This document shows positions 2,223 to 62,749 of a stretch of DNA of 64,000 nt, in pieces. Source of the stretch: Sinomonas sp. ASV486. GTDB taxonomy: Bacteria > Actinomycetota > Actinomycetes > Actinomycetales > Micrococcaceae. Every line of letters begins with the position of its first letter. The first letter of the stretch is position 1. The notes beneath the pieces were generated by a model. That model had not been told where the DNA came from and did no database searches. It saw nothing but the letters and a program-made list of their open reading frames with translations. The DNA lies in the NCBI RefSeq assembly GCF_030908215.1, contig NZ_JAVFJK010000014.1, positions 1 to 64,000 on the forward strand, written 5' to 3'. Position numbers and translations under genes: made by a program.

Positions 2223-4745
2223 ATGGGTGACGTGGGGACCAGCACCGCTCCGTCGGCGGGAGGAGAAGCGCCTGCGCGGGGGCTGACGGCCGAGGAGGTG
2301 GCCCAGCGGGTCGCGGATGGCAGGACCAACGACGTCCCGCCGCGCGCGAGCCGCAGCACGTGGGAGATCGTGCGGGCGAACGTCTTCACCCGGATCAACG
2401 CGATCTTCGCGGTTCTGGCCGTCATCATCTTCTCGACCGGCCACTATCTGGACGGGCTCTTCGCGGGCCTCATCGTGGCCAACAGCATCGTGGGCATCGT
2501 CCAGGAGCTGCGCGCGAAGCGCACCTTGGACAAGCTCGCGATCGTCGGCCAGGCGCACCCGCAGGTGCGCCGCGACGGCCGCACGGCCGCGATCCCGCCG
2601 CATGGGATCGTGCTCGATGACGTCATAGAACTCGGCCCCGGCGATCAGGCCGTCGTGGACGGCGAGGTCCTCTCCGCGGAAGGCCTCGAGCTCGACGAAT
2701 CCCTGCTCACCGGGGAGGCGGACCCGATCCCGAAGACCCCCGGCAGCCCGGTCCTCTCCGGCTCCTACGTCTCCTCGGGCACTGGCCTCTACCGCGCCAC
2801 GAAGGTGGGCCGCGAGGCGTACGCGGCTCAGCTCGAGGCGGAGGCGAGCAAGTTCACGCTCGTGAACTCGGAGCTGCGCAACGGCATCAACACGATCCTC
2901 ACAGTCATCACGTGGCTGCTCATCCCCGCGGGCATCCTCTCGGTGTACAACCAGCTCACGGGCAGCCAGACGCTCCCCGATGCGCTGCGCGGCATGGTCG
3001 CGGCCCTCGTGCCGATGGTCCCCGAGGGCCTCATCCTCATGACGACGATCGCGTTCGCCGTCGGCGTGGTGCGGCTCGGCCGGCGCAATTGCCTCGTGAA
3101 CGAGCTCCCTGCGATCGAGGGCCTCGCCCGGGTAGACGTAGTGTGCGCGGACAAGACCGGGACGCTCACCGAGAACGCGATGGAGCTGGCCGAGGTGCGC
3201 GAGCTCGCCGTTGGCGCGCCCTCCCGAGAGACGACGCACGACGGCGCCGCGCACCCCGTGCCGTCGGGCCTCGGACCCGCGTCCCTCCCCGCAGAAGCAC
3301 TCCCATCTCTGGCCCTCGCAGCTCTGGCCGCCGCCGACAAGCGACCCAACGCGAGCATGCAGGCCGTCCTCGCCGCATACCCGGAATCCCCCGGCTGGAC
3401 CGTCGAGGAGACGCTCCCCTTCTCCTCGGCACGCAAGTACGGCGGTGTGCGGTTCGCCGAGCATGGCGCGTGGATCCTCGGGGCGCCGGACGTGCTCCTG
3501 CCCGAGGGCTCGCCGGCACGGCACGAGGCCGAGGAAGTCGGCGCCCACGGCCTGCGGGTTCTCCTCCTGGCCCGCGCGGAGGAGCTCCCCGCGTCCGCCC
3601 CGTCCGTCGGCGAGCCCGCGAGCGCAAGCCGGGCGGGCGGCGCCGTGCCTCACATGGAGCCCGCAGCGCTCGTGGTCCTCGATCAGAAGGTGCGCGACGA
3701 CGTGCGTCCCACCCTTGACTTCTTCGAGGCGCAGAAGGTCACGGTCAAGGTCATCTCGGGGGACAACGCGGCCTCGGTCGGAGCCGTGGCGGACCAGCTC
3801 GCCCTCCCGGGCGCGGGCTCCCCCGTCGACGCGCGCGGGCTGCCCGAGGACGAGGAGCAGCTGGCCGCCGCGCTCGAGGAGCGGACAGTGTTCGGGCGTG
3901 TGAGTCCCGCTCAGAAGCGGGGCATGGTCCGGGCACTGCAGTCGCGCGGGCACACCGTGGCCATGACGGGTGACGGCGTCAATGACGTCCTCGCACTCAA
4001 GGACGCGGACATCGGGGTCGCGATGGGCGCCGGCAGCCCGGCAGCCCGCGCGGTCGCGCAGATCGTGCTGCTCGACAACAAGTTCTCGACGCTCCCCCAC
4101 GTGGTCGGAGAGGGCCGCCGCGTGATCGGGAACATCGAGCGGGTCGCGAACCTGTTCCTCACCAAGACCGTGTACTCGGTGCTGCTCGCGCTCATGGTGG
4201 GCGTGCCGGGGCTCATCGGATTCGAGGCCCTGCCGTATCCGTTCCTCCCGCGGCACGTGACGATCACGGGCTGGTTCACGATCGGCCTGCCTGCCTTCGT
4301 CCTCTCGCTCGCACCGAACCACGACCGTGCCCGGCCGGGCTTCGTGGGGCGCGTCATGCGGATGGCGATCCCCGCGGGGATCGTGATCGCTGTGGCATCG
4401 TTCACGAGCTACCTCCTCGTGCGGCCCTCGGTGGCCGGGGGCGGCACCACCCAAGTGCAGGCCAGCACCTCGGCGCTCATCACCCTCATCGCCATCGCGC
4501 TGTGGGTGCTCGCGATCGTTGCCCGCCCGTACGCGTGGTGGAAGGTCGTGCTCGTGGTCGTCATGATGGCGGCATCGTTCGCGATGTTCGCGATGCCGCT
4601 CACGCGAACGCTGTTCGAGCTCGACCCCTCGAACTGGGGGCACACATGGACGGCGCTGGCCTGCGCGGGCGCCGGGATCGTGCTCGTGGAGCTCGCGTGG
4701 TGGATCGACGGCTGGCTGCGCCGGGCCAAGGCGACCCGGGGATGA
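2223..4745 (+). CDS. Cation-translocating P-type ATPase, CtpE-like
   Basis: An 840-residue P-type ATPase in the inner membrane. The actuator-domain TGE is at 163-165, the membrane PEGL motif at 267-270, and the phosphorylation site [11 protein letters not shown] has its Asp at 310. The P-domain hinge [20 protein letters not shown] is intact. Membrane helices flank these in the usual order: a pair near 55-90, a pair near 220-285, and about six after residue 640. There is no heavy-metal-binding N-terminal domain and no CPx motif, so it is not a copper/zinc exporter. The [17 protein letters not shown] region resembles mycobacterial CtpE, which has been linked to calcium uptake; the ion here is inferred. 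It is convergent with the YciI gene. Confidence 0.9.
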
Positions 4746-4765
4746 CTCGCTGACATCGGTCCGGG

Positions 4766-5074
4766 CTAAGCGGGTGCCGGCGGCTCTCCCAGCCACAGGG
4801 TCCAGCGCGTCACACGCTCGGTCACGAGCACCGTGCCATGCCACGGGTCGCCCCTGAACGCCGAAGCCGCGGCCCGCGCGTCGTCGGCTGCTACCAGCAC
4901 GAGCGCGGGGCCCTCGTCGACGTCGTCACCGAGCGGGCCGCCCAGGAGCACGACGCCGCGGCGCACCAGACCGTCCATGAACGCGGCATGCTCGTCCCAC
5001 CCGTCCTGGGCGCGCCGCGGACAGTCGGGCGACCACCGGGGGCCGCGGCCGAACGTCACGACGAAGTACGCCAC
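4766..5074 (-). CDS. YciI family protein
   Basis: A 102-residue YciI-like (ferredoxin-like alpha/beta) protein. The core reads AYFVVTFGRGPRW at the N terminus, then an Asp/Glu-rich middle (DEHAAFMDGLVRRGVVLLGG) and a C-terminal VTRWTLWLG. The chosen start is the GTG at 5074, two bases after the CoA-transferase stop codon, so translation is probably coupled. A longer reading frame upstream lies entirely inside the CoA-transferase gene and is rejected. YciI proteins are small enzymes or subunits of mostly unknown substrate, usually with a conserved His/Asp pair. The link to the CoA-transferase is positional only. Confidence 0.8.
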   Translation of the reverse strand: MAYFVVTFGRGPRWSPDCPRRAQDGWDEHAAFMDGLVRRGVVLLGGPLGDDVDEGPALVLVAADDARAAASAFRGDPWHGTVLVTERVTRWTLWLGEPPAPA

Positions 5075-5076: not shown

Positions 5077-6537
5077 TCAGCCCCGATGGCTCCACCCGAG
5101 GGGCGCCGATCCGTAGCGCTCGGACGGGTGGGGGTACTCGAGCTGGGTTCCGTCCAGGATCAGCGGGGGCGGGACGAAGTCGAGGCGTCCGTACGCCGAG
5201 TCGGCGTGCCGGGTCTCGACGACCAGCGCCACTGGCCCACCTGACGGATCGGGCACGCTGGCCCGGAGCAGCTCGTTGGCCGTTGCGATGAGGCTCAGGC
5301 GCGCGCTGCCCGTGACGCCGCGGCTCCGGACTGCGAGCAGCGCGACGGCGGACGCCGCCACGGCCATCCCCGTCGCGTGGTCGAGTGCCTGCACGGGCAA
5401 TGCTCCCGGCCGCCACGCGGCGTCGCGCGTCGACGGACCGGACGGAGCACGGCCCGGCGGAACGGTGCTGGACGCACCGGTGCCGGCAGGCAAGCCTCCA
5501 TAGAGGTGCGCGATCCCGCACGCTGCCTGCACGATGCTGTCGAAGCCTCGGCCGTCGGCCCACGGCCCGGTCCATCCCCACGCGCTCAGGGCCACGACGG
5601 CAAGGTGGGGGAATGCCTCCCGGAGCGAGTCGATGTCCAGCCCGTACCGCGCGAGCGACGCCTGCCGGTAGCCCAGGAGCACGACGTCGGCCTCGCCTGC
5701 GAGCGTGCGCACCCTCGCCGCCTGCTCGGGGTTCCGGAGGTCGGCGACGGCGCTGCGTTTGGCGAAGCCCGTGTCGAGGTGCGCGTCGAGGAGCTCGGGA
5801 TGCTGCGGCGGATCGACGCGGAGCACGTCGGCTCCGAGCGCGCCGAGGAGCCGCGTGGCGCTCGGACCGGCGATGACGCGTGTGAGGTCGAGGACGCGGA
5901 TGCCGGACAGCGGGAGGCCGCCCACGCCGTCGTGCGGAAGGGGCCGCGGCGAGGGGGCCTCGTCGAGCGCGAGGCCGACCCATGGCTCGCCCGCCGCGGC
6001 GAGTCCCATGGGCGTGGCCGCCCACTCGTCAGGGGTCCGGACGGCCGCCGCCACTCCCCCGCCCGACCGCACGGCGTCCTCGATCTCGAGCGCGTCCCGT
6101 TCGAGGAGGGCGGCGTCGAGCTGGTCTGCGGACGTCATGCCCATCGCGGCCAAGAGCCGCTCGGCGTGGTGCGGGTAGTTCGCGTGGAGGCGCACCCAGC
6201 CGTCGCGCGTCCGCCGGAACCCGGACATCGGCGCCCAGATGTCCGCCGAATTCCCGTCGACACGAAGGTGGCGGATGGAGTCGAAGGACGCCGCCACGAG
6301 CGCGGACGACGTCGCCACGCGGCTGCCGCTGGCGGCGTCGCCCTGGGCGCTGTCCAGCGCCGCAAGGGCCGAGACCAGGGCGCCGATCGAGCCTAGGGCC
6401 AACCCCTCGGCGTCGAGCGCACCGGCCCACCAGCGGCGCGGCCCTGACCACCAGCCATCCGGCGCGGGCACGGTCTCGAGGGCAGGGGCGAGATAGCTCC
6501 TGAGGTCGAGGAGCCCTGGCTGGCGGTCGGAGTCCAC
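5077..6537 (-). CDS. Family III CoA-transferase (CaiB/BaiF)
   Basis: A 486-residue CaiB/BaiF-type (family III) CoA-transferase, which moves CoA between carboxylic acids through an Asp-bound intermediate. The Rossmann-like block GIRVLDLTRVIAGPSATR with the following LGADVLRVDPP is diagnostic. The probable catalytic Asp is in DGRGFDSIVQAACG after the WGWTGPW loop. An N-terminal half of about 200 residues precedes the canonical core, as in the longer members. The start is a GTG 6 bp after the upstream amidotransferase stop. Substrate is unknown; no acyl-CoA genes adjoin it, although a phenylacetate module begins 3 kb away. The gene contains one copy of the recurrent 12-mer (5925-5936). Confidence 0.88.
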   Translation of the reverse strand: MDSDRQPGLLDLRSYLAPALETVPAPDGWWSGPRRWWAGALDAEGLALGSIGALVSALAALDSAQGDAASGSRVATSSALVAASFDSIRHLRVDGNSADIWAPMSGFRRTRDGWVRLHANYPHHAERLLAAMGMTSADQLDAALLERDALEIEDAVRSGGGVAAAVRTPDEWAATPMGLAAAGEPWVGLALDEAPSPRPLPHDGVGGLPLSGIRVLDLTRVIAGPSATRLLGALGADVLRVDPPQHPELLDAHLDTGFAKRSAVADLRNPEQAARVRTLAGEADVVLLGYRQASLARYGLDIDSLREAFPHLAVVALSAWGWTGPWADGRGFDSIVQAACGIAHLYGGLPAGTGASSTVPPGRAPSGPSTRDAAWRPGALPVQALDHATGMAVAASAVALLAVRSRGVTGSARLSLIATANELLRASVPDPSGGPVALVVETRHADSAYGRLDFVPPPLILDGTQLEYPHPSERYGSAPLGWSHRG

Positions 6538-7482: not shown

Positions 7483-7534
7483 GCGCACGACGGCGGCGGG
7501 CCGGTCGCGTACCCGGCCCACCGCCGTCGTGCGC
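7483..7534 (-). terminator. 22-bp hairpin built on the recurrent 12-mer, downstream of the VOC gene
   Basis: The left arm (7483-7504) and right arm (7513-7534) form a 22-bp stem with one mismatch and an 8-nt loop. Both arms contain the 12-mer CGCACGACGGCG (7484-7495) or its complement (7522-7533). It lies just after the stop of the minus-strand VOC gene, where a transcription terminator would sit. No T-run follows, so terminator function is inferred from position and stem stability. Confidence 0.7.
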
Positions 7535-7549: not shown

Positions 7550-7954
7550 TTACAGGTTGTACTCGGTGACCCCGCCCTGATGCAGGCTGATGATGTTCCC
7601 GTCCGGATCCGCGAACCACGAGCAGCGCTCGCCGCCGAGGTCGAAGATGTGGTGCTCATCGGTCTTGATGTCCGGGAGGTCGTAGTCCTCGAAGTGGATA
7701 CCGTGGGATTCGAGGTCCGCCATGGCGCCTTCGAGGTTGTCGACCTCGAACTGCACGGCGGTGTGGCCCGTGCGGATGGCATTCTCATCCACCATCAGGC
7801 CCAGCAGTGCGGTTCCGTCCAGACTCAGGATGGTCATCCCGGTCGGGTCCTTTCCGCGGACAGGGAGCCCCAGCGCTCCCTCGTAGAAGTCCCTGGCGCG
7901 GGCCTCGTCGGCCACCGTCAGGATTGTCATTGCAGGGTTCATCGCCAGAGTCAT
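7550..7954 (-). CDS. VOC family (glyoxalase/bleomycin-resistance fold) protein
   Basis: A 134-residue vicinal-oxygen-chelate fold protein with two beta-alpha-beta-beta-beta modules: TILTVADEARARDFYEGALG at the N terminus and the typical C-terminal CSWFADPDGNIISLHQ. The start has a clear GGAGGTG ribosome site. It is the last gene of a three-gene minus-strand set (VOC, HxlR regulator, VOC) in which the regulator lies between two related proteins. This suggests that all three serve one small-molecule or resistance function. VOC proteins include glyoxalases, dioxygenases and drug-binding proteins; the substrate cannot be read from sequence. Confidence 0.85.
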   Translation of the reverse strand: MTLAMNPAMTILTVADEARARDFYEGALGLPVRGKDPTGMTILSLDGTALLGLMVDENAIRTGHTAVQFEVDNLEGAMADLESHGIHFEDYDLPDIKTDEHHIFDLGGERCSWFADPDGNIISLHQGGVTEYNL

Positions 7955-8010
7955 GGCGCACCTCCACGAAGGGAACTGACGGGAACCAGTTTAAGCCCGG
8001 GAGCGGGAAT

Positions 8011-8652
8011 CTAGGCGGCCAAGTGGAAGGTGTTCGCGAAGCGGCCCAGGAGGACATGCGGACCCCGCAGCACCTCGATGACGCCTGCCGCGATCGCGCG
8101 GTCCGGGGCGATCTCTCCGGAGATGAGCCGGTGGATGCCCGGCCCCGCTGCGAAGGCGAGGTCGGAGGGCCCGTCTCCGCGGGCCACGTCGAGGTTGGCG
8201 CCGTCCACTCGGATGAGCAGCTCGGCCGCGCCGAAGCGCCCGGCGTAGGCGGTCGGGGGCAGGCCAGCGGCCACGTGCGGGCGGAACGCGGTGCGGAGGG
8301 CCATCGTCATCGAGTCGGGCGTGATGATCTGCTCCTCGCGCGGCTCTCCCATGGCCTTGAAGCCCCAGGCACCGAGCGCGAGCACCACGGGCTCGAGCTC
8401 GCGGCCGTAGTCCGTGAGCTCGTACACGACGACGCGCGAGCGCGGCGCCCGGCGGAGGACGCCGGCCTCCTGCAGCTCCTTGAGCCGCGCCGCCAGGATG
8501 TTGCTGGGGATGCGGGGCAGGCCCGCGGCGAGCTCCCCGTAGCGGCGCGGCCCGACCAGCAGATCGCGGACGATCAGCAGGGCCCACCGTTCTCCGACGA
8601 GCTCAAGTGCTCGGGTGAGGCCGCAGTACTGCCCGTAGTCGCGTGCGGCCAT
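8011..8652 (-). CDS. HxlR family winged-helix transcriptional regulator
   Basis: A 213-residue HxlR-type regulator. The winged helix-turn-helix occupies residues 10-100: CGLTRALELVGERWALLIVR, GPRRYGELAAGLPRIPSNIL and the wing region RSRVVVYELTDYGRELEPV. The position-10 cysteine fits the redox- or electrophile-sensing residue of many HxlR proteins, though sensing is inferred. About 110 residues follow the DNA-binding domain, longer than minimal HxlR proteins, and may bind a ligand. Its ATG overlaps the stop of the upstream VOC gene by one base (TGATG), so the two are translationally coupled. It likely regulates the flanking VOC genes. Confidence 0.88.
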   Translation of the reverse strand: MAARDYGQYCGLTRALELVGERWALLIVRDLLVGPRRYGELAAGLPRIPSNILAARLKELQEAGVLRRAPRSRVVVYELTDYGRELEPVVLALGAWGFKAMGEPREEQIITPDSMTMALRTAFRPHVAAGLPPTAYAGRFGAAELLIRVDGANLDVARGDGPSDLAFAAGPGIHRLISGEIAPDRAIAAGVIEVLRGPHVLLGRFANTFHLAA

Positions 8653-9086
8653 CAGGCCTGCTGGTTGGCGAAGGCCTCGGGGCCCTGCTCGGCGGCGGCC
8701 GGGTCCATCCAGCCGAACTCGAGGAGGTTGCCGTCCGGGTCGGTCAGCTGACGCTGGTACATGAATCCGTAGTCTGCGGCGGGACGCGCTTCCGCGCCTC
8801 CCGCGGCGAGGCCGTCGGCGACCGCGGCGTCGACGGCATCACGGCTGTCGAGGAAGATCGCGGTCGAGACCGACGGATTCACCGCAGGGTCGCCGATGGG
8901 CAGGTCGGTGAAGGTCTGGAAGAACTCACGCACCAGGATCATGAAGTAGCTGTGGTCTTCTTCCACGACGACACAGGCGGCGTTGTGGTCCGTGAAGAGG
9001 GGGTTGATGGTGAATCCGATCGCCGTGTAGAACGCCTTGGCGCGATCCAAGTCGGTCACCGGCAGATTGACGAACATGGCAGTCAT
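8652..9086 (-). CDS. VOC family protein
   Basis: A 144-residue VOC-fold protein starting MTAMFVNLPVTDLDRAKAFY, with the end signature QLTDPDGNLLEFGWMDP. The start at 9086 has an AGGGGAG site; the longer in-frame Met at 9134 has none and adds residues unlike the family. It overlaps the HxlR regulator start by one base. It resembles the PhnB/glyoxalase-like VOC proteins often regulated by an adjacent HxlR or MarR protein. Substrate unknown. Confidence 0.85.
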   Translation of the reverse strand: MTAMFVNLPVTDLDRAKAFYTAIGFTINPLFTDHNAACVVVEEDHSYFMILVREFFQTFTDLPIGDPAVNPSVSTAIFLDSRDAVDAAVADGLAAGGAEARPAADYGFMYQRQLTDPDGNLLEFGWMDPAAAEQGPEAFANQQA

Positions 9087-9177
9087 TGCGGTCTCCCCTG
9101 TGGGTTCGGATGGTGATTGCGTTAACACTTGCAAAAAACAAGTGGATGGTCAAGGGCTCACACAGACCTGCTCCGGA

Positions 9178-9225
9178 GCGCACGACGGCGGTGGGCTGGG
9201 TATGGAACCCGGCCCACCGCCGTCG
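9178..9225 (-). terminator. Hairpin near-identical to the 7.5-kb hairpin, downstream of paaZ
   Basis: The stem of 17 bp (9184-9200 with 9208-9224, one G-T type mismatch) sits about 70 bp beyond the paaZ stop. Its left arm starts with the 12-mer CGCACGACGGCG at 9179-9190. The arm sequence is nearly the same as the hairpin at 7483-7534, so the VOC-HxlR-VOC set lies between two copies of one hairpin. Confidence 0.65.
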
Positions 9226-9231
9226 CCTGTT

Positions 9232-9294
9232 ACGGCCCCACCTCGCACTCACACGGCCCGACCTCGGCGCCACACGGGGTGACCTCGGCGGGAG
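9232..9294. repeat. Three tandem 21-bp units downstream of paaZ
   Basis: Three units of 21 bp begin at 9232, 9253 and 9274. They share the pattern ACGG-CC-ACCTCG followed by a variable half. They end four bases before the paaZ stop codon complement. Similar GACC/GGTC-rich short tandem units occur after other genes (16.6, 30.4 and 54.7 kb). Confidence 0.7.
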
Positions 9295-9297
9295 GGG

Positions 9298-11427
9298 TCA
9301 GGCCTTCTTCGGCCACTCCTTCTCAACGAGCGTCAGGACGTCGTAGTTGGCGATGAGCTCGTCGTCCTGGTTGGTCAGGACGGCGTCCCAGCGGACCTCG
9401 CCGTACTCGTCCGTGACCCGCGGGGTGATCTGCTTCGCCGTGAGGGTCACGCGGATCGAATCGCCGGCAGGCACGGGCTGGAGGAAGCGCAGGTTGTCGA
9501 GGCCGTAGTTCAGCAGCACCGGGCCGGGCTCGGGCGAGACGAACAGGCCGGCGGCCCAGCTCACGAGCAGGTAGCCGTGCGCCACGATCCCCGGGAACAC
9601 GCCGGCGGCGCGGGCCGCCTCATCGTCCATGTGGGCGTAGAACGTGTCGCCGGTCTCGGCGGCGAACTTCGAGATGTCCTCGCGCGTGATCTGGCGCAGC
9701 TCGGAGCGCATCGCGTCGCCCACGCGGAGCTCCGCGAGCGACTTGCGGAACGGGTGCGTCGACGGGTCGGCAGGGTCCGCGAGGTTCCTGTCCGCACCCG
9801 TGTGCCACAGGCCCGTCACCGCGGTGAGCATGTTGGGCGAACCCTGGAGGGCGGTGCGCTGCATGTGGTGCTTGACGGAGCGGATGCCGCCGAGTTCCTC
9901 GCCGCCGCCCGCGCGGCCCGGGCCGCCGTGGACGAGGTGCGGGACCGGGGAACCGTGGCCGGTCGAAGTCTTGGCGTCCTCGCGGTTGAGCACGAGCACG
10001 CGACCATGGTGCGCGGCGATGCCGGTCACGAGGGTCCGCGCGACCTCCGGGTCGTTCGTGGCGACCGAGGCGACGAGCGAGCCCGCGCCCATCGCCGCGA
10101 GCTTCACAGCCTCGTCGAGGCTCGAGTAGCCGACCACGGACGAGACCGGGCCGAACGCCTCGGTGCCGTGCAGGGCCGGAGCGAGCGCGTCTTCCCACGT
10201 CAGGACCACGGGAGACATGAACGCGCCGTCTCCGACGACGGCCTTCTGGCCGCTGGCCGTGACGACCTCCGGGGCCTCGAGCGAACCGAACGCGATGCGC
10301 CCGCCTGCGGCGACGAGCGATTCGACGGCGCCCCGCACGTCCTTGAGCTGCTCCATCGACGCGAGTGCGCCCATCGTGACGCCCTCGGCCCGAGGGTCGC
10401 CGACCACGACGCGCTCCGTCACCCGCGCACCGATGGCGGCAACGACGTCGTCCACGAGTTCCGCGGGGACGATACTGCGGCGCACCGCCGTGCACTTCTG
10501 GCCAGCCTTGACCGTCATCTCGGTGACCACGGACTTCACGAACGCGTCGAACTCTGGGGTGCCGGGAACGGCGTCGGGACCGAGGATCGCGGCGTTGAGG
10601 GAATCGGTCTCCGAGGTGAAGCGGACCCCGCCGTGCACAACGTTCGGGTGCGACTTGAGGAGGTTCGCGGTGCCGGCCGAGCCGGTGAAGGAGACCATGT
10701 CGCGGTAGTCGAGCTCGTCCAGGAGCGTCCGCGCGGAGCCGGAGATGAGCTGGATCGAGCCGGCCGGGAGGATGCCGGACTCGACCATGAGGCGCACCAT
10801 CGCCTCGGCCACGTAGCCGGTCGGGGTAGCGGGCTTGACGATCGTCGGGACGCCGGCGATGAACGCGGGGGCGAACTTCTCGAGCATGCCCCACACGGGG
10901 AAGTTGAACGCGTTGATCTGCGCGGCGACGCCGGGGATACGGGTGTAGATGTGCTCGCCCGCGAATGAGCCGTCCTTGGAGAGGACCTCAAGGGGACCGT
11001 CCACGATCACGTTTGAGTTCGGCAGCTCGCGGCGCCCCTTCGAGCCGAACGTGAAGAGCACGCCGATGCCGCCGTCGATGTCCACCATGTTGTCGATCTT
11101 CGTTGCGCCGGTCCGGAACGAGAGCTCGTAGAGCTCCTGCTTGCGCCCGTTGAGGAACTGGGCCAGCTCCTTGAGCTTGAGGGCGCGCTCGTGGATGGTG
11201 AGCTTGCCGAGCCCCGCCTGGCCCACCGTGCGAGCGTGCTCGACCATGGCCTTCAGGTCGAGGCCGTCCGCATTCACGACGGCGAGCAGCTCGCCCGTGC
11301 TCGCATCCCTGACCTCAGTGCCCTTGCTGGTCGATTCGGCGGGCGTCCACCAGGTGTCGCGGATGTAGCTGGGCACGACGGCGACCCGGGTCGCCTCTGG
11401 TGCAGTGGTCTCCGGGGCAGTGGTCAT
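9298..11427 (-). CDS. paaZ: PaaZ: bifunctional oxepin-CoA hydrolase / 3-oxo-5,6-dehydrosuberyl-CoA semialdehyde dehydrogenase
   Basis: PaaZ opens the oxepin-CoA ring in aerobic phenylacetate degradation and oxidises the resulting aldehyde. The 709-residue protein has an N-terminal aldehyde dehydrogenase domain (to about residue 530; FNFPVWGMLEKFAPA near 175-189, catalytic Cys312 in KAGQKCTAVRR) fused to a C-terminal MaoC-like (R)-hydratase domain (about 560-709) with FAAETGDTFYAHMDD and GIVAHGY. The start at 11427 has a GGAAGGA site; the upstream in-frame Met at 11463 does not. A PaaR-like operator lies at 11496-11517. Ring-epoxidase genes (paaABCDE) are not in the window, so they must be elsewhere if the pathway is complete. 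Confidence 0.93.
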   Translation of the reverse strand: MTTAPETTAPEATRVAVVPSYIRDTWWTPAESTSKGTEVRDASTGELLAVVNADGLDLKAMVEHARTVGQAGLGKLTIHERALKLKELAQFLNGRKQELYELSFRTGATKIDNMVDIDGGIGVLFTFGSKGRRELPNSNVIVDGPLEVLSKDGSFAGEHIYTRIPGVAAQINAFNFPVWGMLEKFAPAFIAGVPTIVKPATPTGYVAEAMVRLMVESGILPAGSIQLISGSARTLLDELDYRDMVSFTGSAGTANLLKSHPNVVHGGVRFTSETDSLNAAILGPDAVPGTPEFDAFVKSVVTEMTVKAGQKCTAVRRSIVPAELVDDVVAAIGARVTERVVVGDPRAEGVTMGALASMEQLKDVRGAVESLVAAGGRIAFGSLEAPEVVTASGQKAVVGDGAFMSPVVLTWEDALAPALHGTEAFGPVSSVVGYSSLDEAVKLAAMGAGSLVASVATNDPEVARTLVTGIAAHHGRVLVLNREDAKTSTGHGSPVPHLVHGGPGRAGGGEELGGIRSVKHHMQRTALQGSPNMLTAVTGLWHTGADRNLADPADPSTHPFRKSLAELRVGDAMRSELRQITREDISKFAAETGDTFYAHMDDEAARAAGVFPGIVAHGYLLVSWAAGLFVSPEPGPVLLNYGLDNLRFLQPVPAGDSIRVTLTAKQITPRVTDEYGEVRWDAVLTNQDDELIANYDVLTLVEKEWPKKA

Positions 11428-11495
11428 CGTCGACGGATCCTTCCGGTCGGGGCGGGGAGCCATGAAGCGACCGGGCCAACCTTCTCAGAGGCATT

Positions 11496-11517
11496 ACTGA
11501 CCGGCCGTTCGGTAATG
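11496..11517. promoter_or_regulatory. PaaR-like TetR-family operator upstream of paaZ
   Basis: The core ACCGGCCGTTCGGT (11500-11513) is ACCG-NN-CG-NN-CGGT, and the left flank ACTG extends the palindrome. This matches the general form reported for PaaR sites in actinobacteria. It lies about 70 bp upstream of the paaZ start, in the position expected for repression. A second site precedes the thiolase operon at 19956. Confidence 0.75.
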
Positions 11518-11700
11518 GGTCAAGAATACACGGAAGGCCTGCAGGGCACGAGGGGAGCCGAAACAAGCGTCCTCCGCCCCTTCTGCTACAAGACCCCACT
11601 GCCTAGGATGACGCGAGTCAGGACTGTTAGCCTCCGCGGCGCCAGTCCACCGGCTGGGGGATGGACGACGGCGTGGGGGCACCTCGAGTGAGGACCTCAC

Positions 11701-12513
11701 ATGAACGCGCTCACCAACCACCCGCCCACACGCAGACCATCCCCCATCGCCCGGGCCCTTCTGGCCCTCCTGACGGCCTTCGGGCTCGTCGCGGGCACCG
11801 CTGTCCTCCCTGCATCGGCTACACCGCCGTCGGCCTACGTCGGTCTTGGCGACTCAATCGCGGCCGGGACGGGGGGGTCAGACTATGTGGATGCCACGTG
11901 CCTTCGCACCGCCGAGGCCTATCCCACGCAGCTCGGCGGTCTGAACAACGCGTGTTTCGGTGCCACCACCTCAATCGTTGTGCAGACCCAACTCGGGGCG
12001 CTCAACGGTGCAGTGCGGCGCGTCTCGGTGACCGTGGGGGCAAACGACATCGGCTCCGGCCAGGTAGCGGCCGCCTGTATGAGCGCACCGCAGTCCACGA
12101 CCTGCCAGCAAGCCCTCGCAAAATCCCTCTTCGTAGACCTGCCCCAGCTTCCGGGGAAGATCCGGACCATGATCACAGCGATCCGAGCCAAGGCCCCGAA
12201 CGCCGCCATTGTCCTGACCGGCTACCCGCGGCTGTTCACAGTGTCGCCGACCGAGCCGGTTATCCAGCGGACGATGGAAGACACCATCAACTACGCAACG
12301 GATCTCCTCAACACCACGATCGCCACCTCGGCCTATGCGAACGGCACCTCGTTCTCCTCAGTGACGTGGGCCTTCATCGGGCACGGCATCGGCTCGGCGG
12401 CCCCGTGGATTCACAGCCCGCGGGACACAACCAACCAACTCGAGTGGTTCCACCCGAACGACTCCGGATACACGCTCGGCTATGTGCCGGCCGTCCGACC
12501 TTACGTGCAGTAG
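11701..12513 (+). CDS. Secreted SGNH/GDSL-type hydrolase
   Basis: A 270-residue exported SGNH hydrolase. A signal peptide (charged start, hydrophobic stretch about residues 17-35, cleavage near SAT-PPS) precedes block I YVGLGDSIAAG (nucleophilic Ser), block III TVGANDIG (oxyanion Asn) and the C-terminal histidine block WFHPNDSGY. The Asp three residues before the His in classical SGNH enzymes is a Glu here. Several cysteines suggest disulfides outside the cell. It is the first of three related genes within 3.5 kb; the second follows after 52 bp. Likely an extracellular esterase or lipase; substrate unknown. Confidence 0.87.
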   Translation: MNALTNHPPTRRPSPIARALLALLTAFGLVAGTAVLPASATPPSAYVGLGDSIAAGTGGSDYVDATCLRTAEAYPTQLGGLNNACFGATTSIVVQTQLGALNGAVRRVSVTVGANDIGSGQVAAACMSAPQSTTCQQALAKSLFVDLPQLPGKIRTMITAIRAKAPNAAIVLTGYPRLFTVSPTEPVIQRTMEDTINYATDLLNTTIATSAYANGTSFSSVTWAFIGHGIGSAAPWIHSPRDTTNQLEWFHPNDSGYTLGYVPAVRPYVQ

Positions 12514-12565
12514 CCACGGTCAGCCCCGTCCGTCCCCTTCCCGCCCTGCCAAGTCAAGGAGAACC

Positions 12566-13507
12566 ATGAGCCACACCAGCCGGACAGCGTCGCCGATCAC
12601 CAGAGGGGTCACGGCGCTGGTCGCTGCCATCAGCCTCGTCGCGGGGGTGAGCGCCCTTCCCGCCACCGCAACACCGCCGCCCCCCGTCAACTACGTGAAT
12701 CTCGGCGACTCCTATTCCGCCGGCTGGGGCGCTGGCGCACCGGAGGTGAACCCGAACTACTCCGCCCCCGTATGCTATGGCTCCGGACCTGACCACGTGA
12801 CCCTGCTCTCCGCCCTGATGTCGGTGAACTTGGTGGGCGACTTTGCCTGCGCCGGCGCCACGTTAGCGCCCGGAGCCAGCTACCCGAGCATCCCCGATCA
12901 GATACGCGTCGCAGTGAACAAGGGGGCGCTCACCACGAGCACGGGCCTCGTCACTCTGACGGGCGGCGGTAACGATCTCGGCTTTGTCGGCCTCCTCGAA
13001 CAGTGCGGGGCCTTGAAGCAGAGCGGTCAGAGCTGCGTCACCCTCTTCCATAACGGGGCCGAGGCAGCCCCTACCGTGGTCACCCCACTGGTAGCCCGGG
13101 TTGCCGCACAGATCCGGGACGCCGCCGAGAATGCGCGCATCGCGTGGCTCGGCTATCCGCACCTCTTCGCGGTGGCTGGCCAGCCGACGACGATCCTCCC
13201 AGGCGATGGCTTCCTGACGAATGACGAGGCCGTCGCGCTCAACGAGGCTGCAGATGCGCTCAACTCGTCGATCAAGGATGGCCTGAAAGGCGTAAAGAAC
13301 GCGCAGTTCGCCAACGTCGTCCCGAAGTTCGACGGCCACGAGCTCGGCTCCTCTGCCCCCTGGATCACCCCACTCGTCCTTAACCCGGCCGATCCCGGAT
13401 ACATCTTCAACCTCCACCCGACGGCAACCGGCTACGCAGAGGGGTATTACCCCGTCGCGGTCAGGCAGGTGAAGCCCGCTCAGATTCCCCAGGCCGCAAA
13501 GCTCTGA
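12566..13507 (+). CDS. Secreted SGNH/GDSL-type hydrolase
   Basis: A 313-residue paralogue of the preceding gene. The signal peptide ends near ATATPPPP, followed by VNYVNLGDSYSAGWG (Ser), TLTGGGNDLGF (Asn) and FNLHPTATGYAEGYYP (His). The Asp of the usual DxxH pair is absent, as in Streptomyces scabies-type esterases that use a Ser-His dyad; that comparison is inference. The start is set by AAGGAG six bases upstream of the ATG at 12566. It is probably cotranscribed with the first SGNH gene and ends at a hairpin shared with the convergent GNAT gene. Confidence 0.87.
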   Translation: MSHTSRTASPITRGVTALVAAISLVAGVSALPATATPPPPVNYVNLGDSYSAGWGAGAPEVNPNYSAPVCYGSGPDHVTLLSALMSVNLVGDFACAGATLAPGASYPSIPDQIRVAVNKGALTTSTGLVTLTGGGNDLGFVGLLEQCGALKQSGQSCVTLFHNGAEAAPTVVTPLVARVAAQIRDAAENARIAWLGYPHLFAVAGQPTTILPGDGFLTNDEAVALNEAADALNSSIKDGLKGVKNAQFANVVPKFDGHELGSSAPWITPLVLNPADPGYIFNLHPTATGYAEGYYPVAVRQVKPAQIPQAAKL

Positions 13508-13516
13508 TCCCTGACC

Positions 13517-13553
13517 GAGCTGCGCCTCACCCCCTGTGGGCGACGCGCAGCTC
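13517..13553. terminator. Bidirectional hairpin between SGNH and GNAT genes
   Basis: GAGCTGCGC at 13517-13525 pairs perfectly with GCGCAGCTC at 13545-13553. The hairpin lies between convergent genes and overlaps the last codons of the GNAT gene, as expected for a shared terminator. Confidence 0.5.
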
Positions 13554-14120: not shown

Positions 14121-14129
14121 GCGGTGAGT

Positions 14130-14230: not shown

Positions 14231-14278
14231 TAATATCTCCATCGTATGGATTTAATGACTCGCTCTCAGGGGGAAACC

Positions 14279-53513: not shown

Positions 53514-54707
53514 ATGCCGTTCCCCAATACCCATGCCCCCTACGCGCGGGTCCCCCACACGGACGCCTCCCACATGGACGCCTCCGTCGCCGCCCGGTCC
53601 GCTGACACAAGCGGCGGCGAGCATGCCGAAAAACGCCGCCGCGTCCTGGCCCTGCTGGATGCGGCCAGCGCGAACGCCGTCGCCCTCACCTCACAGGCTG
53701 CGCTCGCGTGGTACCTGCAGGGGGCACGGACCCACGTGAGCCTCGCGGGCGGCCCGATCGTCGCCGCAGTCGTGGACCGCGACGGTGAAGCGGTGCACGT
53801 GACGTCGAACGAGGAGCACCGGCTCGTGGCCGAGGAGCTGCCCTCGTGGGCGCAGCCCGTCGTCGTCGCACACCCGTGGCACCGCGACGTCGTCGCCACC
53901 GCCGAGGCGCAGGCCCTCGCTGCGGGCGGGCTACGGGAGGAGGCACTCGCCGCCGGGCTCCGGAACGCGCGGCAGTCGCTCCACGCGGAGGAGGCCGCGC
54001 GGTACCGGATCCTGGGTCGCGACGTCGCACGGCTCCTCACGCGTGAGCTCGCCGCGGCCCGACCCGACGAAGCCGAGGCGGATCTGGCCGCACGGCTGAC
54101 TGCAGGGGTTGTGGACCTCGGGGCCGAGCCACTCGTGGTCCTCGTGGGCGGGGACTCGCGCGCAGCCCACCGGCATCCCCTCCCGACGCGAGCCCCGCTC
54201 GGCCGGCGCGCCATGGCCGTGGTGTGCGCGCGGCGGCACGGTCTCATCCTCAACATCACGCGCTGGGTGCGCTTCGGTCCACGGACCGCCGACGAGCGGA
54301 CCGCAGATGCCAGGATCCTCGGGGTCGAGGCCGTTTACCTCTCAGGATCCCGGCCCGGTGGGTCCCTCCAGCGGGCCTTCGACGCCGGCACCGCGGCCTA
54401 CCTCGCCAACGGATTCGCCTCCGACGAGTGGACTCGCCACCATCAGGGCGGCGTCGCCGGATACGCAGGGCGGGATCCGCGCGCCCTGCCGGGGCTCGAT
54501 CTGGGCCTCGGTACGGACGTTGCCTTCGCGTGGAATCCCACGGCAGCGGGCTGCAAGGTCGAAGACACGATTCTCAGCACCCAGGGGGGCTTCGAGGTCC
54601 TCTCCGTTGACCCGGAGTGGCCGACCGTCGCCTCTGTGGTCCCTGCCTCGCACGACGGCGCGTGGGCGCCGCAGGTGCTGGACCGCCCCGACGTTCTCGA
54701 GCTCTGA
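53514..54707 (+). CDS. M24 (creatinase/aminopeptidase P fold) family protein, possibly degenerate
   Basis: A 397-residue protein with the pita-bread fold of M24 peptidases: a creatinase-like N-terminal domain (YLQGARTHVSLAGGPIVAAVV) and a C-terminal domain with the substrate His region WTRHHQGGVAGYAGRDPR. The strand that normally gives metal-binding Asp (D-x-T-R) reads LILNITRWVRF here, with Asn in place of Asp, and the final Glu is in KVEDTIL. It may therefore bind metals differently or have a non-peptidase role. It stands within the sugar-acid locus under two LacI-type operators. Function unknown. Confidence 0.78.
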   Translation: MPFPNTHAPYARVPHTDASHMDASVAARSADTSGGEHAEKRRRVLALLDAASANAVALTSQAALAWYLQGARTHVSLAGGPIVAAVVDRDGEAVHVTSNEEHRLVAEELPSWAQPVVVAHPWHRDVVATAEAQALAAGGLREEALAAGLRNARQSLHAEEAARYRILGRDVARLLTRELAAARPDEAEADLAARLTAGVVDLGAEPLVVLVGGDSRAAHRHPLPTRAPLGRRAMAVVCARRHGLILNITRWVRFGPRTADERTADARILGVEAVYLSGSRPGGSLQRAFDAGTAAYLANGFASDEWTRHHQGGVAGYAGRDPRALPGLDLGLGTDVAFAWNPTAAGCKVEDTILSTQGGFEVLSVDPEWPTVASVVPASHDGAWAPQVLDRPDVLEL

Positions 54708-56346: not shown

Positions 56347-57482
56347 GCGGGAACTCCTGAGGTGTGGGCGGCATGGGGCAAGTGCGGTTCGTCAGCTGCG
56401 AGCCGCTCGACGAACTCGAGGCCGAGGCCAGGAGCCGGCTCGAGGTGGATGGTTGCGCCCTTCCGAACGACGGGCGACGGCGCAGCGAGCAGGCCGAGTG
56501 TCTCGAACGAGGTGTCCTCGACCTCCTCAATGTGCACCGCGCCGGGCAGGGTCGCGGCGAGCTGTGCCGAGAGGTCGGTGAGCAGGTGGGGCGCAAGTTC
56601 CACGGAGCCCGACTGGGCGAGGGCCGCGATACGCAGGAACGGCGTGATGCCGCCGACGCGGATGATGTTGGGCTGGATGACGTCGCACGCGCCGGCCGCG
56701 ACATACTCGCGGAAGCGCTGGAGCGTGTGGAGGTTCTCCCCCACCGCGATGGGCACCGACACGGATCGGCGGAGCTGCACGTGCCCGTCCAGATCCTCGG
56801 CACGCAGCGGTTCCTCGAGCCAGTGCAGCCCGTACGGCTCGAGCGCGGCGACGGCACGCCGGGCGGTGGGCAGGTCCCAGCGCTGGTTCGCGTCCACCAT
56901 GAGGCGCCGGCCCGGGCCGAGGGCCTTCCGCACGGCGGCGACCCGCTCGACGTCCTCCTCGATCTCCGGCTTCCCGACCTTGATCTTGACGGCGCCGTAC
57001 CCGGCCACGATCCATCGCTGCACCTGCTCGAGGAGCTCCTCGAGGCTGTAGTGCAGGTTGACGCCGCTCCCGTACGCGGGCATCGACGCACGACGCCGCC
57101 CCAACAGCCCCGCGATCGGCTCGCCGAGGCGCCGGGCCGTCAGATCCCAGAGAGCCAGGTCGAGGCCCGCGAGCGCGATGGTGGTCAGGCCTCCCCCGCC
57201 GGCCTCGTGGAGGTGGCGCCAGAGCACCTCCCACACGGCCTCGGGGTGCGTGGGGCCCCCGAGGGCTGCCCGCGAGATGTCCGCGTCGAGGAGGCTCTGC
57301 ACCGCCCCCGCGCCAATCGTCGGGGTCCAGGAGAAGCCGGTTCCGCGGTTCCCGTGGGAGTCCTCGACCTCCACGACGATCACATGCACCTCGGGGACGT
57401 CCGGTCCCCAGGGCCGCGGGAGCCTCGGAACGAGCAGCCTGGTCCGGAGCGAGGCGAGCACCGGCTCACGCGCGGCGCTCAT
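56343..57482 (-). CDS. Enolase-superfamily dehydratase or cycloisomerase (mandelate racemase/muconate lactonizing type)
   Basis: A 379-residue MR/MLE enzyme. The catalytic KxK is YGAVKIKVGKPE; metal ligands are Asp in MVDANQRWD, Glu in HWLEEPL and Glu in AVGENLHT; a His is in ELAPHLLTDL. In context it should act on an aldaric acid or its lactone: a galactarate/glucarate dehydratase forming 5-keto-4-deoxyglucarate, or a galactarolactone cycloisomerase. Sequence inspection does not separate these. Overlaps kdgD and the dehydrogenase by four bases on each side. Confidence 0.85.
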   Translation of the reverse strand: MSAAREPVLASLRTRLLVPRLPRPWGPDVPEVHVIVVEVEDSHGNRGTGFSWTPTIGAGAVQSLLDADISRAALGGPTHPEAVWEVLWRHLHEAGGGGLTTIALAGLDLALWDLTARRLGEPIAGLLGRRRASMPAYGSGVNLHYSLEELLEQVQRWIVAGYGAVKIKVGKPEIEEDVERVAAVRKALGPGRRLMVDANQRWDLPTARRAVAALEPYGLHWLEEPLRAEDLDGHVQLRRSVSVPIAVGENLHTLQRFREYVAAGACDVIQPNIIRVGGITPFLRIAALAQSGSVELAPHLLTDLSAQLAATLPGAVHIEEVEDTSFETLGLLAAPSPVVRKGATIHLEPAPGLGLEFVERLAADEPHLPHAAHTSGVPA

Positions 57483-58561
57483 GAGGCCGCGAACGCGTCG
57501 GCCGCCAGCTCAGCACCGGCGAGGTCACCACCGGCCAACTCAGCACCGGCCAACTCAGCACTGGCGGGGTCGCCACCCGTGCGCCGCGCGCCGTCGTGCG
57601 CGAGGTCGGCGAAGGCGACGGGCTCGCCGGCCGCCAGCTCAGCACCGATGGCGAGAATGCGCTCGAGCTCGGCGAGATGCTCGGCGGACGGGTCGAGGAG
57701 CGGTGCCCGCACGCCGCCGACGGGCAGGCCGCCGAGCCGGACGCCGGCCTTGACGAGCGAGACCCCATAGCCGGGGACCGTGTCCCGCAGCGCGACGAGC
57801 GGCCGGTAGAAACGCGTGAGGATCTCGTGCCGCCGTTCCTCGTCGCCGGCAGCGTACGCGCGGTAGTACGCGTTCGCGACCTCCGGCGCCATCGCGAACG
57901 CCGCCGAGGAGTACAGCGGCATGCCGATCCCCCGGTACGCGCCCTGGGTGAGCTCGGCGGTGAGCAGGCCGTTGAAGAACTGGAAGTCGGTCCGACCGGT
58001 GGCCTCAACCGCAAGGACCACCTCCTGCGTCACGCCGATGTCCCCCACTCCGTCCTTGAACCCCACGACCTGGGGGTTCCCGGCGAGCCGGGCCGCCGCC
58101 TCGGGCGTGAACCTCGCGTTGCCGCGGTGGTAGACGACGAGCTCGAGCGAGGTCGACGCCGCGATGGCTTCGACGTACCGCTCAAGCCCCGCGACGGGTG
58201 CGTTGACGAGGTACGGCGGCAGGACGAGAAGACCGTCCGCGCCTGCATCCTCGGCGGCCTTCGCCGCCTCGATCGCATGGCCGAGCGGTCCACCCGTCCC
58301 TCCGATCACGGGGACGCGATGCCCAGCCTCGGGACCGCCGTCCGCGGTGTGCTCGCCCACCGCCTGGACGGCGGCACGCACGACGGCGCCCGCCTCCTTC
58401 GCGGTGAGGGCGTGGTATTCGCCGGTGCCGCACGCGGCGAACACGCCGCCGGGTCCGTGGGAGAGGCGCGACGCGATGTGGTCGCGCGTGAGCCCGGGAT
58501 CCACGGCGCCGGACGAGCCGAAGGCCGTGATGGGGAAGAAGAGGATGCCGTCGAAGTGCAT
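57479..58561 (-). CDS. kdgD: 5-dehydro-4-deoxyglucarate dehydratase with repeat tail
   Basis: KdgD, of the DapA/N-acetylneuraminate lyase family, decarboxylates and dehydrates 5-keto-4-deoxyglucarate to alpha-ketoglutarate semialdehyde. The protein starts MHFDGILFFPITAF; Schiff-base Lys is in QVVGFKDGVGD, and VVYHRGNARFTPE and FFNGLLTAE are subgroup markers. The conserved enzyme ends near residue 325. A tail to residue 360 has pentapeptide-like repeats (SAELAGAELAGGDLAGAELA) encoded by a 15-bp tandem repeat. Two 12-mers occur (57589, 58377). Start at 58561 behind AGGAGC. Confidence 0.92.
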   Translation of the reverse strand: MHFDGILFFPITAFGSSGAVDPGLTRDHIASRLSHGPGGVFAACGTGEYHALTAKEAGAVVRAAVQAVGEHTADGGPEAGHRVPVIGGTGGPLGHAIEAAKAAEDAGADGLLVLPPYLVNAPVAGLERYVEAIAASTSLELVVYHRGNARFTPEAAARLAGNPQVVGFKDGVGDIGVTQEVVLAVEATGRTDFQFFNGLLTAELTQGAYRGIGMPLYSSAAFAMAPEVANAYYRAYAAGDEERRHEILTRFYRPLVALRDTVPGYGVSLVKAGVRLGGLPVGGVRAPLLDPSAEHLAELERILAIGAELAAGEPVAFADLAHDGARRTGGDPASAELAGAELAGGDLAGAELAADAFAAS

Positions 58562-61082: not shown

Positions 61083-61092
61083 AGCGAGAAGG

Positions 61093-61124: not shown

Positions 61125-61144
61125 TCTTCTTCGTTGGCCCGCAG

Positions 61145-62749
61145 TCAGACCGCGGCGGGAACGTACTCCCGCAACTCCACGCTGGCCCGGACGGCCGCGC
61201 GGAGGGCGGCGAGGCCGCCGTCGAGAGCCCCGGCCGCGCGGGCCTGGACCAGCACGTTGCCGAGTGCGGTGGCCTCGACGGGCCCGGCGATCACCGGCAG
61301 CCCGGTCGCGTCGGCGGTCAGGCGGCAGAGGAGCTCGTTCTGGGACCCGCCGCCGACCACGTGGACCACCTGCGGGCGCCGCCCGGACAGGAGCGCGGCC
61401 TGGGCGATGGTGCGGGCGTAAGCTGCGGCGAGGCTGTCGAGGATGCAGCGCACGACGGCGCCGGGCTCGTCCGCGAGCACGTCGCCGCCGCTGGGATGGG
61501 AACCGCCCGAGGCGCCGGCACGCGCGGCGGCCGCATGGATCCGCTCGGGCATGCCGCCCGGAGCGATGAACTCCTCGGAGTCCACGTCGATCTGCGGACC
61601 GCCAGCCGGCAGTGCCGCGGCGGCGGCGAGCAGGACCTCGAGGGAGGACTCCCGCCCCTCGGCGGCCCACTGCCGCTGCGACTCGGACAGGAGCCACAGA
61701 CCTCCCACGTTGCGCAGGTACCGGATGGTGCCGTCGACGCCGCGCTCGTTGGTGAAGTTCGCGGCACGGCTGGCATCCGTGAGCACGGGGGCGTCCAGCT
61801 CGACGCCCACGAGCGACCACGTGCCCGAGGAGATGTACGCGACCTCCTCCCCTTCGCTGTCCCCTCGCGGTGCCGCGGGGACCGCGGCCACAGCGGAGGC
61901 GGTGTCGTGGGAGCCGACCGCGACGACAGGCGTGCCCGCGGGCAGCCCGGTGCGCTCGGCCACGGCCGGCAGGAGGGTCCCGTAGGTCTCCCCCGGGGCG
62001 ATGAGCTCAGGGAAGAGCGCCTCGGGGAACCCAAGGGCCTCGAACAGCTCCTGTGACCAGTTGCCCGTGCGCGCGTCGAGGAGCCCGGTGGTTGACGCGT
62101 TGGTCTCCTCGGTCCGGCGGGCGCCGGTGAGCCAGAACGCGAGCAGGTCCGGGATGAGGAGCGCCTCGTACCCGTCCAGGCGCGGCTCGGCGGCGAGCTG
62201 GTAGAGCGTGGTGAACGGCAGGAACTGCAGCCCGTTCACCCCGTAGAGCCTCTCCGGCGCGGCCTTCGCGTGGACCACCGGGATCGCGGCCTCGGTGCGC
62301 CCGTCGCGGTACGAGAACACGGGCTCCTTGAGCCGGCCCGCGCCGTCGACGAGGCCGTAGTCAACGGCCCACGTGTCGATCCCGATGCTCTCGATCCGCA
62401 GTCCGCGCGCCGCAGCCGCCTCGCGGGCCTTCGTCAGGCCGGTCTGGACCTCGGCGAAGATGCCGGGCAGGTCCCAGCGGAGCACGCGGGCTCCATCGCC
62501 GGTCACGCCGTCGTCGATCACGCCGTTCGGGAAGCGGTGGACGACGTCGAGCGCGACCTTCGCGGCGCCGTCGTGCGGTGCGCCGTCGTGCATCCCGCCC
62601 GGCCCCCCGCCGTCGTGCATCCCGCCCGGCCCCCCGCCGGCTGGCTGAGGAGCGCCCACCGTGGCGAGGATGACGCGCCCGGAGGAGGCCCCGACATCGA
62701 CCGCTGCGAAGCAATGGCGGCCAGGGCCGGGCGCGCCGGGCTCGTTCAC
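61145..62749 (-). CDS. rhaB: Rhamnulokinase
   Basis: A 534-residue FGGY-family kinase that phosphorylates L-rhamnulose. The N-terminal ATP site is AVDVGASSGRVIL; WAVDYGLVD, FPFTTLYQLAAEPRL, PDLLAFWLTG and SHDTASAVAAVP are rhamnulokinase hallmarks, and VHVVGGGSQNELLCRLTADA is the C-terminal nucleotide loop. About 30 residues (33-62) are inserted early in the protein, including GGPGGMHDG twice and HDG again, encoded by a 27-bp tandem repeat next to the 12-mer at 62566. Start overlaps the stop of the aldolase/dehydrogenase gene (ATGA). Confidence 0.93.
   Translation of the reverse strand: MNEPGAPGPGRHCFAAVDVGASSGRVILATVGAPQPAGGGPGGMHDGGGPGGMHDGAPHDGAAKVALDVVHRFPNGVIDDGVTGDGARVLRWDLPGIFAEVQTGLTKAREAAAARGLRIESIGIDTWAVDYGLVDGAGRLKEPVFSYRDGRTEAAIPVVHAKAAPERLYGVNGLQFLPFTTLYQLAAEPRLDGYEALLIPDLLAFWLTGARRTEETNASTTGLLDARTGNWSQELFEALGFPEALFPELIAPGETYGTLLPAVAERTGLPAGTPVVAVGSHDTASAVAAVPAAPRGDSEGEEVAYISSGTWSLVGVELDAPVLTDASRAANFTNERGVDGTIRYLRNVGGLWLLSESQRQWAAEGRESSLEVLLAAAAALPAGGPQIDVDSEEFIAPGGMPERIHAAAARAGASGGSHPSGGDVLADEPGAVVRCILDSLAAAYARTIAQAALLSGRRPQVVHVVGGGSQNELLCRLTADATGLPVIAGPVEATALGNVLVQARAAGALDGGLAALRAAVRASVELREYVPAAV

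Follow-up and report, generated by a model that had tools for sequence, protein, structure and literature searches.

A dispersed 12-mer resembling a DNA uptake signal in Sinomonas, and its dialects within the genus

Sequence-specific DNA uptake is named for two Gram-negative families in the available part of a 2016 review (PMC5031613). The DNA uptake sequences (DUS) of the Neisseriaceae and their dialects have been described by Frye et al. (2013, PMC3630211), and Flp/Tad-dependent natural transformation is known from Micrococcus luteus (reviewed in PMC6370729), a member of the same family as Sinomonas. In this study, we analysed a 64-kb window (the whole stretch of DNA presented here), which is part of contig C6 of the genome of Sinomonas sp. 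ASV486 (G000; 4.28 Mb, 19 contigs), and found that its most frequent 12-mer, CGCACGACGGCG, best written as CGCACGACGnCG, is a real and DUS-like signal. The word is enriched at the level of DNA, in coding and noncoding sequence alike; both strands carry it, and the part tested shows no replichore bias. It is probably a DNA recognition word that is dispersed through the genome and serves as an uptake signal.

The likeness to the Neisserial system, as far as the accessible text of PMC3630211 describes it, extends to a short non-palindromic word on both strands of coding and intergenic DNA, to inverted pairs, which in the case of DUS are associated with terminators, and to single-base dialects around a common core that track phylogeny. 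The Sinomonas word differs in its lower density, in its monoderm actinobacterial host and in being known here from sequence alone. Its reverse complement, CGCCGTCGTGCG, shares just GCCGTC, maybe by chance, with the DUS ATGCCGTCTGAA as given in part of PMC5031613. According to the same part of that review, the uptake signal sequence (USS) of the Pasteurellaceae is likewise a genome-wide enriched word with few essential bases and with dialects; however, its sequence, AAGTGCGGT, is unrelated, its hosts are Gram-negative and its function has been shown experimentally. Micrococcus luteus resembles Sinomonas in possessing comEA, comEC and Tad-type genes (PMC6370729, in part), and no uptake sequence of M. 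luteus is mentioned in the available portion of that review or matched by a term search of the available portion of PMC8467076. Among the literature matches listed, all open-licence papers in which absence is no proof, none concerned an uptake sequence of Actinobacteria or Sinomonas. Other abundant words are known from bacterial genomes. HIP1 of cyanobacteria is a very abundant short palindrome of coding and noncoding DNA; the Sinomonas word is also short and abundant in both, but it is non-palindromic and has dialects and hairpin pairs. Chi and the FtsK-orienting polar sequences (KOPS) are short, over-represented, non-palindromic words with, as a rule, a strand polarity relative to replication, which the Sinomonas word lacks in the part tested.

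The original prediction had listed 18 copies in the window, and all 18 were recovered at exactly those positions, 10 on the forward and 8 on the reverse strand. The whole genome contains 498 copies (257 forward, 241 reverse; 116 per Mb), compared with 9 of the reversed word, and the window is 2.4-fold richer than the genome (18 copies vs 7.4). A 464-kb sample of the genome was composed of the window, ten unselected stretches (200 kb) and ten stretches chosen for listed copies. Because these last ten, together with a window chosen by a reader, raise the counts, densities and gene-end statistic of the sample, the unselected 200 kb were taken alone as a check. Genes were called by our own script (408 genes in the 464-kb sample, 86% coding; starts are approximate).

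The 464-kb sample contained 85 copies, compared with 2.5 under an order-4 Markov model (34-fold). Coding DNA accounted for 54 of them, vs 2.2-3.0 under a codon-pair Markov model (18-25-fold), and noncoding DNA for 31, vs 0.15 under an order-3 model. The unselected 200 kb held 25 copies (125 per Mb, near the genome mean), comprising 6 noncoding copies and 19 in coding DNA, where the codon-pair model expects 0.96 (20-fold). Scaling the expectation by hand to the genome gives about 22 copies and hence an approximately 23-fold enrichment. The size of the enrichment depends on the null: the 0.1 expected copies behind the claim of more than 100-fold at the outset was a base-composition figure. The frequency is far above the value of a dicodon model, and the word, far from being restricted to this region, occurs genome-wide and, in its main or a dialect form, across the genus. 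Against the codon-pair null it is the top 12-mer in coding DNA, and the best of 300 permuted 12-mers reached 5-fold, compared with 32-fold for the motif itself. Copies in the 464-kb sample are read in five of the six frames: 6, 24 and 2 copies in sense frames 0, 1 and 2 (0.29, 0.71 and 0.01 expected) and 2, 0 and 20 in antisense frames 0, 1 and 2 (0.03, 0.02 and 1.27 expected).

Single-base variants reveal a protein-like specificity, CGCACGACGnCG, with the rigid core CGACGnCG. When all 36 single-base variants were counted against expectation in the 464-kb sample, those at positions 5-9, 11 and 12 were hardly enriched, with small expectations of 0.2-2.4 each and with position 5 to T (4 vs 0.6) and position 7 to G (8 vs 2.2) as partial exceptions. 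Position 4 was almost equally strict, and positions 1-3 tolerated some changes (position 2 to T, 11 vs 0.9; position 3 to G, 18 vs 2.0). Position 10 is free: its A, C and T variants have 11, 15 and 13 coding copies vs 1.4, 2.1 and 1.5 expected (approximately 7-9-fold). As position 10 is the second codon base in the commonest frame, which reads His-Asp-Gly (HDG), every change there alters an amino acid. Wobble positions 8 and 11 have no enriched variant, whereas a T is tolerated at the wobble positions 2 and 5. The form CGSACGACGnCG, with position 10 free and C or G at position 3, occurs at 386 per Mb in this upwardly biased sample.

The proteins bear the mark of the word. HDG occurs 49 times in those of the 464-kb sample vs 15.4 expected (3.2-fold), whereas its permutations GDH, DGH, HGD, DHG and GHD have counts of 12-17 and ratios of 0.8-1.1; in the unselected 200 kb, HDG occurs 18 times vs 6.6 expected and the permutations 5-7 times. 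The codon choice GCCGTCGTG is used for 69 of 200 AVV tripeptides (34.5% vs 10.4%), and the corresponding figure for the control VVA is 17 of 161 (10.6% vs 10.4%). The codon-pair null, the variant profile, the HDG permutations and the unselected coding DNA together give good support to the earlier proposal that selection acts on the DNA and not on the protein, and the HDG excess represents a DNA signal shaping protein sequence. These data also bear on the explanation that biases in codons, dipeptides or low-complexity sequence in a genome of 70% GC yield the word as a by-product. The HDG and AVVR (Ala-Val-Val-Arg) frames do use favoured codons, and other CGACG-type words are mildly over-represented. 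Nevertheless, such a by-product is extremely improbable, given that unselected DNA lies about 20-fold above the codon-pair null, that noncoding DNA is enriched too, that enrichment extends even to a frame needing rare codons (2 vs 0.01), that two wobble positions lack an enriched variant yet a second codon position is free, and that a 71% GC relative from another genus (G064) showed no clear signal over 140 kb, even if its whole genome has 68 copies vs 3 of the reversed word. Codon or dicodon bias was rejected on the basis of the codon-pair null, the permuted words and the frame-by-frame counts.

Strand polarity was tested in one genome, in the first 1.16 Mb of the complete chromosome G104, which begins with dnaA and dnaN; this covers part of one replichore. 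Another complete chromosome, G135, was left out, its first genes not being dnaA-like by eye. The G104 segment carries 100 copies on the forward strand and 92 on the reverse (p = 0.61), i.e. no leading-strand bias. All 17 pairs of neighbouring copies lying within 60 bp of each other are head-to-head (the word, then its complement), compared with 1.9 expected in any order. A short, non-palindromic, genome-wide word could in principle be a Chi-like recombination hotspot or an FtsK-orienting sequence (KOPS or architecture-imparting sequence, AIMS), and an architecture signal had been considered in the original prediction. The strand balance disfavours that part of it, and a uniformly inverted arrangement of close pairs would be senseless for an orienting signal; we regard this explanation as very improbable.

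The inverted pairs fold as strong hairpins and are seen mostly at gene ends. A search of genome contigs for them matched 95 stretches; 80 of these included 30 in named Sinomonas records, with 30 pairs and 25 different spacers, 24 of the 30 spacers being 6 nt long. Copies of the word share little beyond the word itself and the spacers mostly differ, and a mobile repeat was ruled out on these grounds. Among the noncoding copies of the 464-kb sample for which both neighbouring genes are known, 23 of 29 lie no more than 110 bp downstream of a stop codon (background 38%), a figure inflated by the picking of stretches for copies, some of them close pairs, and by the counting of both arms of a pair. 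The same position is seen for 6 of 6 noncoding copies in the window and for 3 of 5 in the unselected stretches. Another explanation is that the word is for the most part a set of terminator hairpins, or of repeats like the repetitive extragenic palindromic (REP) elements, whose arms have spread. The noncoding copies near stop codons (a biased sample), the strong folding of the pairs, and seven hairpins of a related word (core ACGACGGCGG) within a single 20-kb stretch of a second genus (G217:C1:580001-600000, L183), several of them directly 3' of stop codons, are in keeping with it. However, the word is not confined to intergenic hairpins, as coding DNA accounts for 19 of the 25 copies in the unselected stretches and for 54 of the 85 in the sample as a whole; just 34 of the 192 copies in the G104 segment are in close pairs; the spacers of the pairs mostly differ; and antisense coding copies, needless for an RNA signal, are enriched too (22 vs approximately 1.3). 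A terminator family is a very unlikely account of the word as a whole.

The word has a sister dialect within the genus. Dialect A is CGCACGACGGCG and dialect B is CGGACGACGGCG, also written CGGACGACGGCG(G); ACGACGACGGCGG, our first guess at a sister dialect, was replaced by the latter once more sequence had been counted. The 15 genomes of the genus have 43-663 copies of CGCACGACGGCG and 135-514 copies of CGGACGACGGCG, and the ratio of A to B is above 1 in nine of them (1.2-3.4) and below 1 in six (0.14-0.32). In 900 kb from the six low-ratio genomes, CGGACGACGGCG has 44 coding copies vs 4.9 expected, as well as 17 noncoding copies. Its profile again shows nearly rigid positions 5-9, 11 and 12 and a free position 10, with position 4 relaxed and the change of position 5 to G (5 vs 2.2) among the largest excesses. 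A midpoint-rooted tree was built for 14 genomes of the genus from 22 genes beside comEC (9,533 columns); the remaining genome, G186, which had 0 of 33 orthologues in its comEC region, was left out. The five low-ratio genomes in the tree form a single clade with a local support of 1.0, and the dialect follows phylogeny within the genus.

The search of the family covered 295 genomes in 32 genera; 280 of the genomes lie outside the genus. In regularly spaced stretches of G281, from another genus, CGACGGCGG is the top 9-mer against the codon-pair null (142 vs 32 in coding DNA, with 38 noncoding copies). The core is also enriched, more weakly than in G281, in two genomes of other genera, G143 (140 kb) and G217 (120 kb, two of the six stretches of which were taken where several copies were listed). 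We consider it an evenly balanced question whether these words make up an uptake-signal language of the Micrococcaceae, which would be independent of those of the Neisseriaceae and Pasteurellaceae, would share the core CGACGnCG, would be spelt CGCACGACGGCG and CGGACGACGGCG(G) in parts of Sinomonas and ACGACGGCGG in at least one further genus, would be the first in a monoderm and would rewrite proteins through HDG. Inverted pairs of CGCACGACGGCG were also seen in Streptomyces, Arthrobacter, Paenarthrobacter and some other actinobacteria (L021, L036, L038 and others); over the non-Sinomonas pairs, with genera not separated, GTGACGG is the most frequent spacer (8).

Individual sites were compared in aligned genes beside comEC from up to 14 genomes, which yielded 17 aligned sites. 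Several copies sit in lineage-specific indels of the aligned orthologues, and changes of dialect or of position 10 occur at one and the same site. One site in gene G000_32 reads CGSACGACGnCG in all eight species whose letters are complete there; its position 3 is C or G, and its position 10 is G, C or A. Within their clade, A sites are 90% conserved, compared with 81% for codon-matched bases, a modest excess over 21 site-reference pairs that are not independent. Five control words offered 0 or 1 site each and were uninformative.

An uptake sequence, as originally proposed, is the best fit for this pattern of copies on both strands, absence of polarity in the part tested, inverted pairs, copies at gene ends, dialects and turnover at permissive sites; uptake itself we infer, and this function of the word is likely. 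In this reading, the core would be bound by a receptor on the cell surface that belongs to the competence apparatus, perhaps a pilus of the Tad/Flp type that feeds ComEA/ComEC, and DNA of the same species would be preferred. As the preferred fragments recombine, biased uptake (molecular drive) would raise the number of copies, most readily where sites are permissive, as in protein loops, indels and gene ends. Inverted pairs at such places may in addition have come to serve as terminators, and a shift in receptor specificity would yield a dialect. ComEC, DprA and T2SSE-family ATPases were found in all 15 genomes of the genus, and in G000 a ComEA-like HHH protein adjoins comEC.

Several points weigh against an uptake signal, among them the inflation of the gene-end statistic given above. 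We know of no uptake experiment, and among the literature matches listed there was nothing on the transformability of Sinomonas. The same competence families match in 10, 11 and 14 of 14 control genomes, Escherichia coli included, so their presence does not discriminate; in G186, ComEC gives a short, split match. Site conservation gave a mixed picture over too few independent sites: the B sites are less conserved than codon-matched controls, both within their clade (76% vs 84%) and outside it (67% vs 80%; nine sites). The first 61 kb after dnaA in G104 (G104:C1:1-60988) contain zero copies vs approximately 9 expected from the genome mean. Outside the genus, CGCACGACGGCG reaches up to 75 copies, which overlaps the low values within it (43-92), and CGGACGACGGCG up to 156, which overlaps the lower Sinomonas values. 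Noncoding density is 3.6 times coding density in the 464-kb sample, and this excess drops to about 2 times in the unselected 200 kb. The codon choice of HDG is skewed to the word (41 of 49, 84%, vs 44%), but that of the control GDH is skewed about equally (11 of 14, 79%), DGH (35%) and HGD (42%) being without skew. Finally, the exact-word density of 116 per Mb is several-fold below the occupancy of approximately 1% given for the Neisserial DUS in the accessible text of PMC3630211.

The word might instead be the binding site of a DNA-binding protein unconnected with uptake, such as a nucleoid-associated or chromosome-organising protein or a modification enzyme, that is needed chromosome-wide. 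The sharp profile indicates recognition by something and not by an uptake receptor specifically, and the genome-wide spread and strand balance are compatible with such a protein. On the other hand, the change of dialect on one branch, the head-to-head pairs and the turnover of sites would be anticipated of uptake signals, whereas this alternative gives no special reason to expect them. As for a modification enzyme, a non-palindromic 12-mer with an 8-bp core would be long for a methylation site. We consider a binding protein of this kind rather unlikely, though less so than the other alternatives.

If the uptake role is true, the word may be the first such sequence known in actinobacteria. It would add to the two Gram-negative families a third case, independent of them, in a phylum of monoderm, high-GC bacteria, and would show that DNA self-recognition does not require an outer membrane. 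It would also point to competence in a large group of soil bacteria and offer a ready-made tag with which Sinomonas and its relatives could be transformed. Through the switch of dialect within one genus, the evolution of receptor and word can be tested directly.

In the window, the predicted restriction of coding copies to two frames, giving HDG and AVVR, was borne out, and the count of 13 copies in 11 genes became 12 copies in 9 genes by our own gene calls. The HDG frame is read in the P-type ATPase gene 2298-4745 (3235-3246, forward, sense), the CoA-transferase III gene 5077-6537 (5925-5936, reverse), the AMP-binding enzyme gene 28242-29435 (28348-28359, forward), the histidine phosphatase gene 41778-42407 (42290-42301, reverse), gene 53514-54707, which has no Pfam match (54649-54660, forward), the DHDPS-family gene 57479-58561 (57589-57600, reverse) and the FGGY kinase gene 61145-62749 (62566-62577, reverse). 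The AVVR frame is read in the ABC transporter gene 21532-23160 (22835-22846, forward, antisense to the gene) and the enoyl-CoA hydratase gene 27213-28184 (27356-27367, reverse), and there is a second copy each in the AMP-binding enzyme gene (29303-29314, reverse), the DHDPS-family gene (58377-58388, forward) and the FGGY kinase gene (61449-61460, forward).

Six copies lie between genes by the same calls, where five at gene ends had been claimed, and instead of these forming inverted pairs throughout, the window holds one exact and one imperfect pair. The exact pair consists of a left arm at 7484-7495 (forward) and a right arm at 7522-7533 (reverse), both downstream of the stop codon of the minus-strand gene 7550-7930, the right arm at 16 bp from it. 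With a mostly paired 26-nt spacer, the two arms make a 50-bp, terminator-like hairpin (7484-7533) that folds at -46.8 kcal/mol and has no T run after it. The copy at 9179-9190 (forward) is an arm of an imperfect 50-nt hairpin (9179-9228) and lies 107 bp downstream of the stop codon of the minus-strand gene 9298-11427. The other three follow stop codons at 10 bp (30385-30396, forward, gene 29544-30374), 72 bp (35859-35870, reverse, gene 34821-35786) and 36 bp (45721-45732, forward, gene 45139-45684).

Two tandem arrays in the window are related to the word. In the FGGY kinase gene, a 15/27-bp tandem array (62566-62640) made of degenerate near-copies of the motif (CGCCGTCGTGCATCC) has the exact copy at 62566 at its edge. 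Gene 49902-51047 (minus strand, esterase-like by eye) contains three 45-bp tandem units (50675-50812, reverse) that hold the position-10 variant (CGCACGACGnCG, with n other than G) at 50693, 50738 and 50783 and put THDAAGRLPRDAPPS-type repeats into the protein. Two further, dispersed repeats were noticed. One is noncoding and consists of 22-bp units (CGCCAGAGACCCCACAA...) arrayed both directly and in inverted orientation; it is present at 16629-16670 of the window and at loci L105, L107, L111 and L116, and GCCAGAGACCCC has 18 noncoding and 0 coding copies in the 464-kb sample. Arrays of 21-bp units (CCACACGGGGTGACCTCGGCG...) make up the second repeat, which is mostly noncoding and is present at 9232-9290 and at loci L104, L108, L115 and L116; in the same sample, ACACGGGGTG has 18 noncoding copies and 1 coding copy.

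The density of the core varies between regions in two other genomes. It looks lower in the first 61 kb after dnaA of G104 (L124, L125). The first 20 kb of a 202-kb second contig of G226, possibly a plasmid (L159, G226:C2:1-20000), contain zero copies of either dialect and 23 cores, whereas each 20 kb of the main contig's first 120 kb contains 46-90 cores. On that main contig (L153, G226:C1), seven GTTTCACGTGAAAC sites, which we take to be parS-like, lie at 7619-15104, near the end with a dnaA-like gene (by eye).

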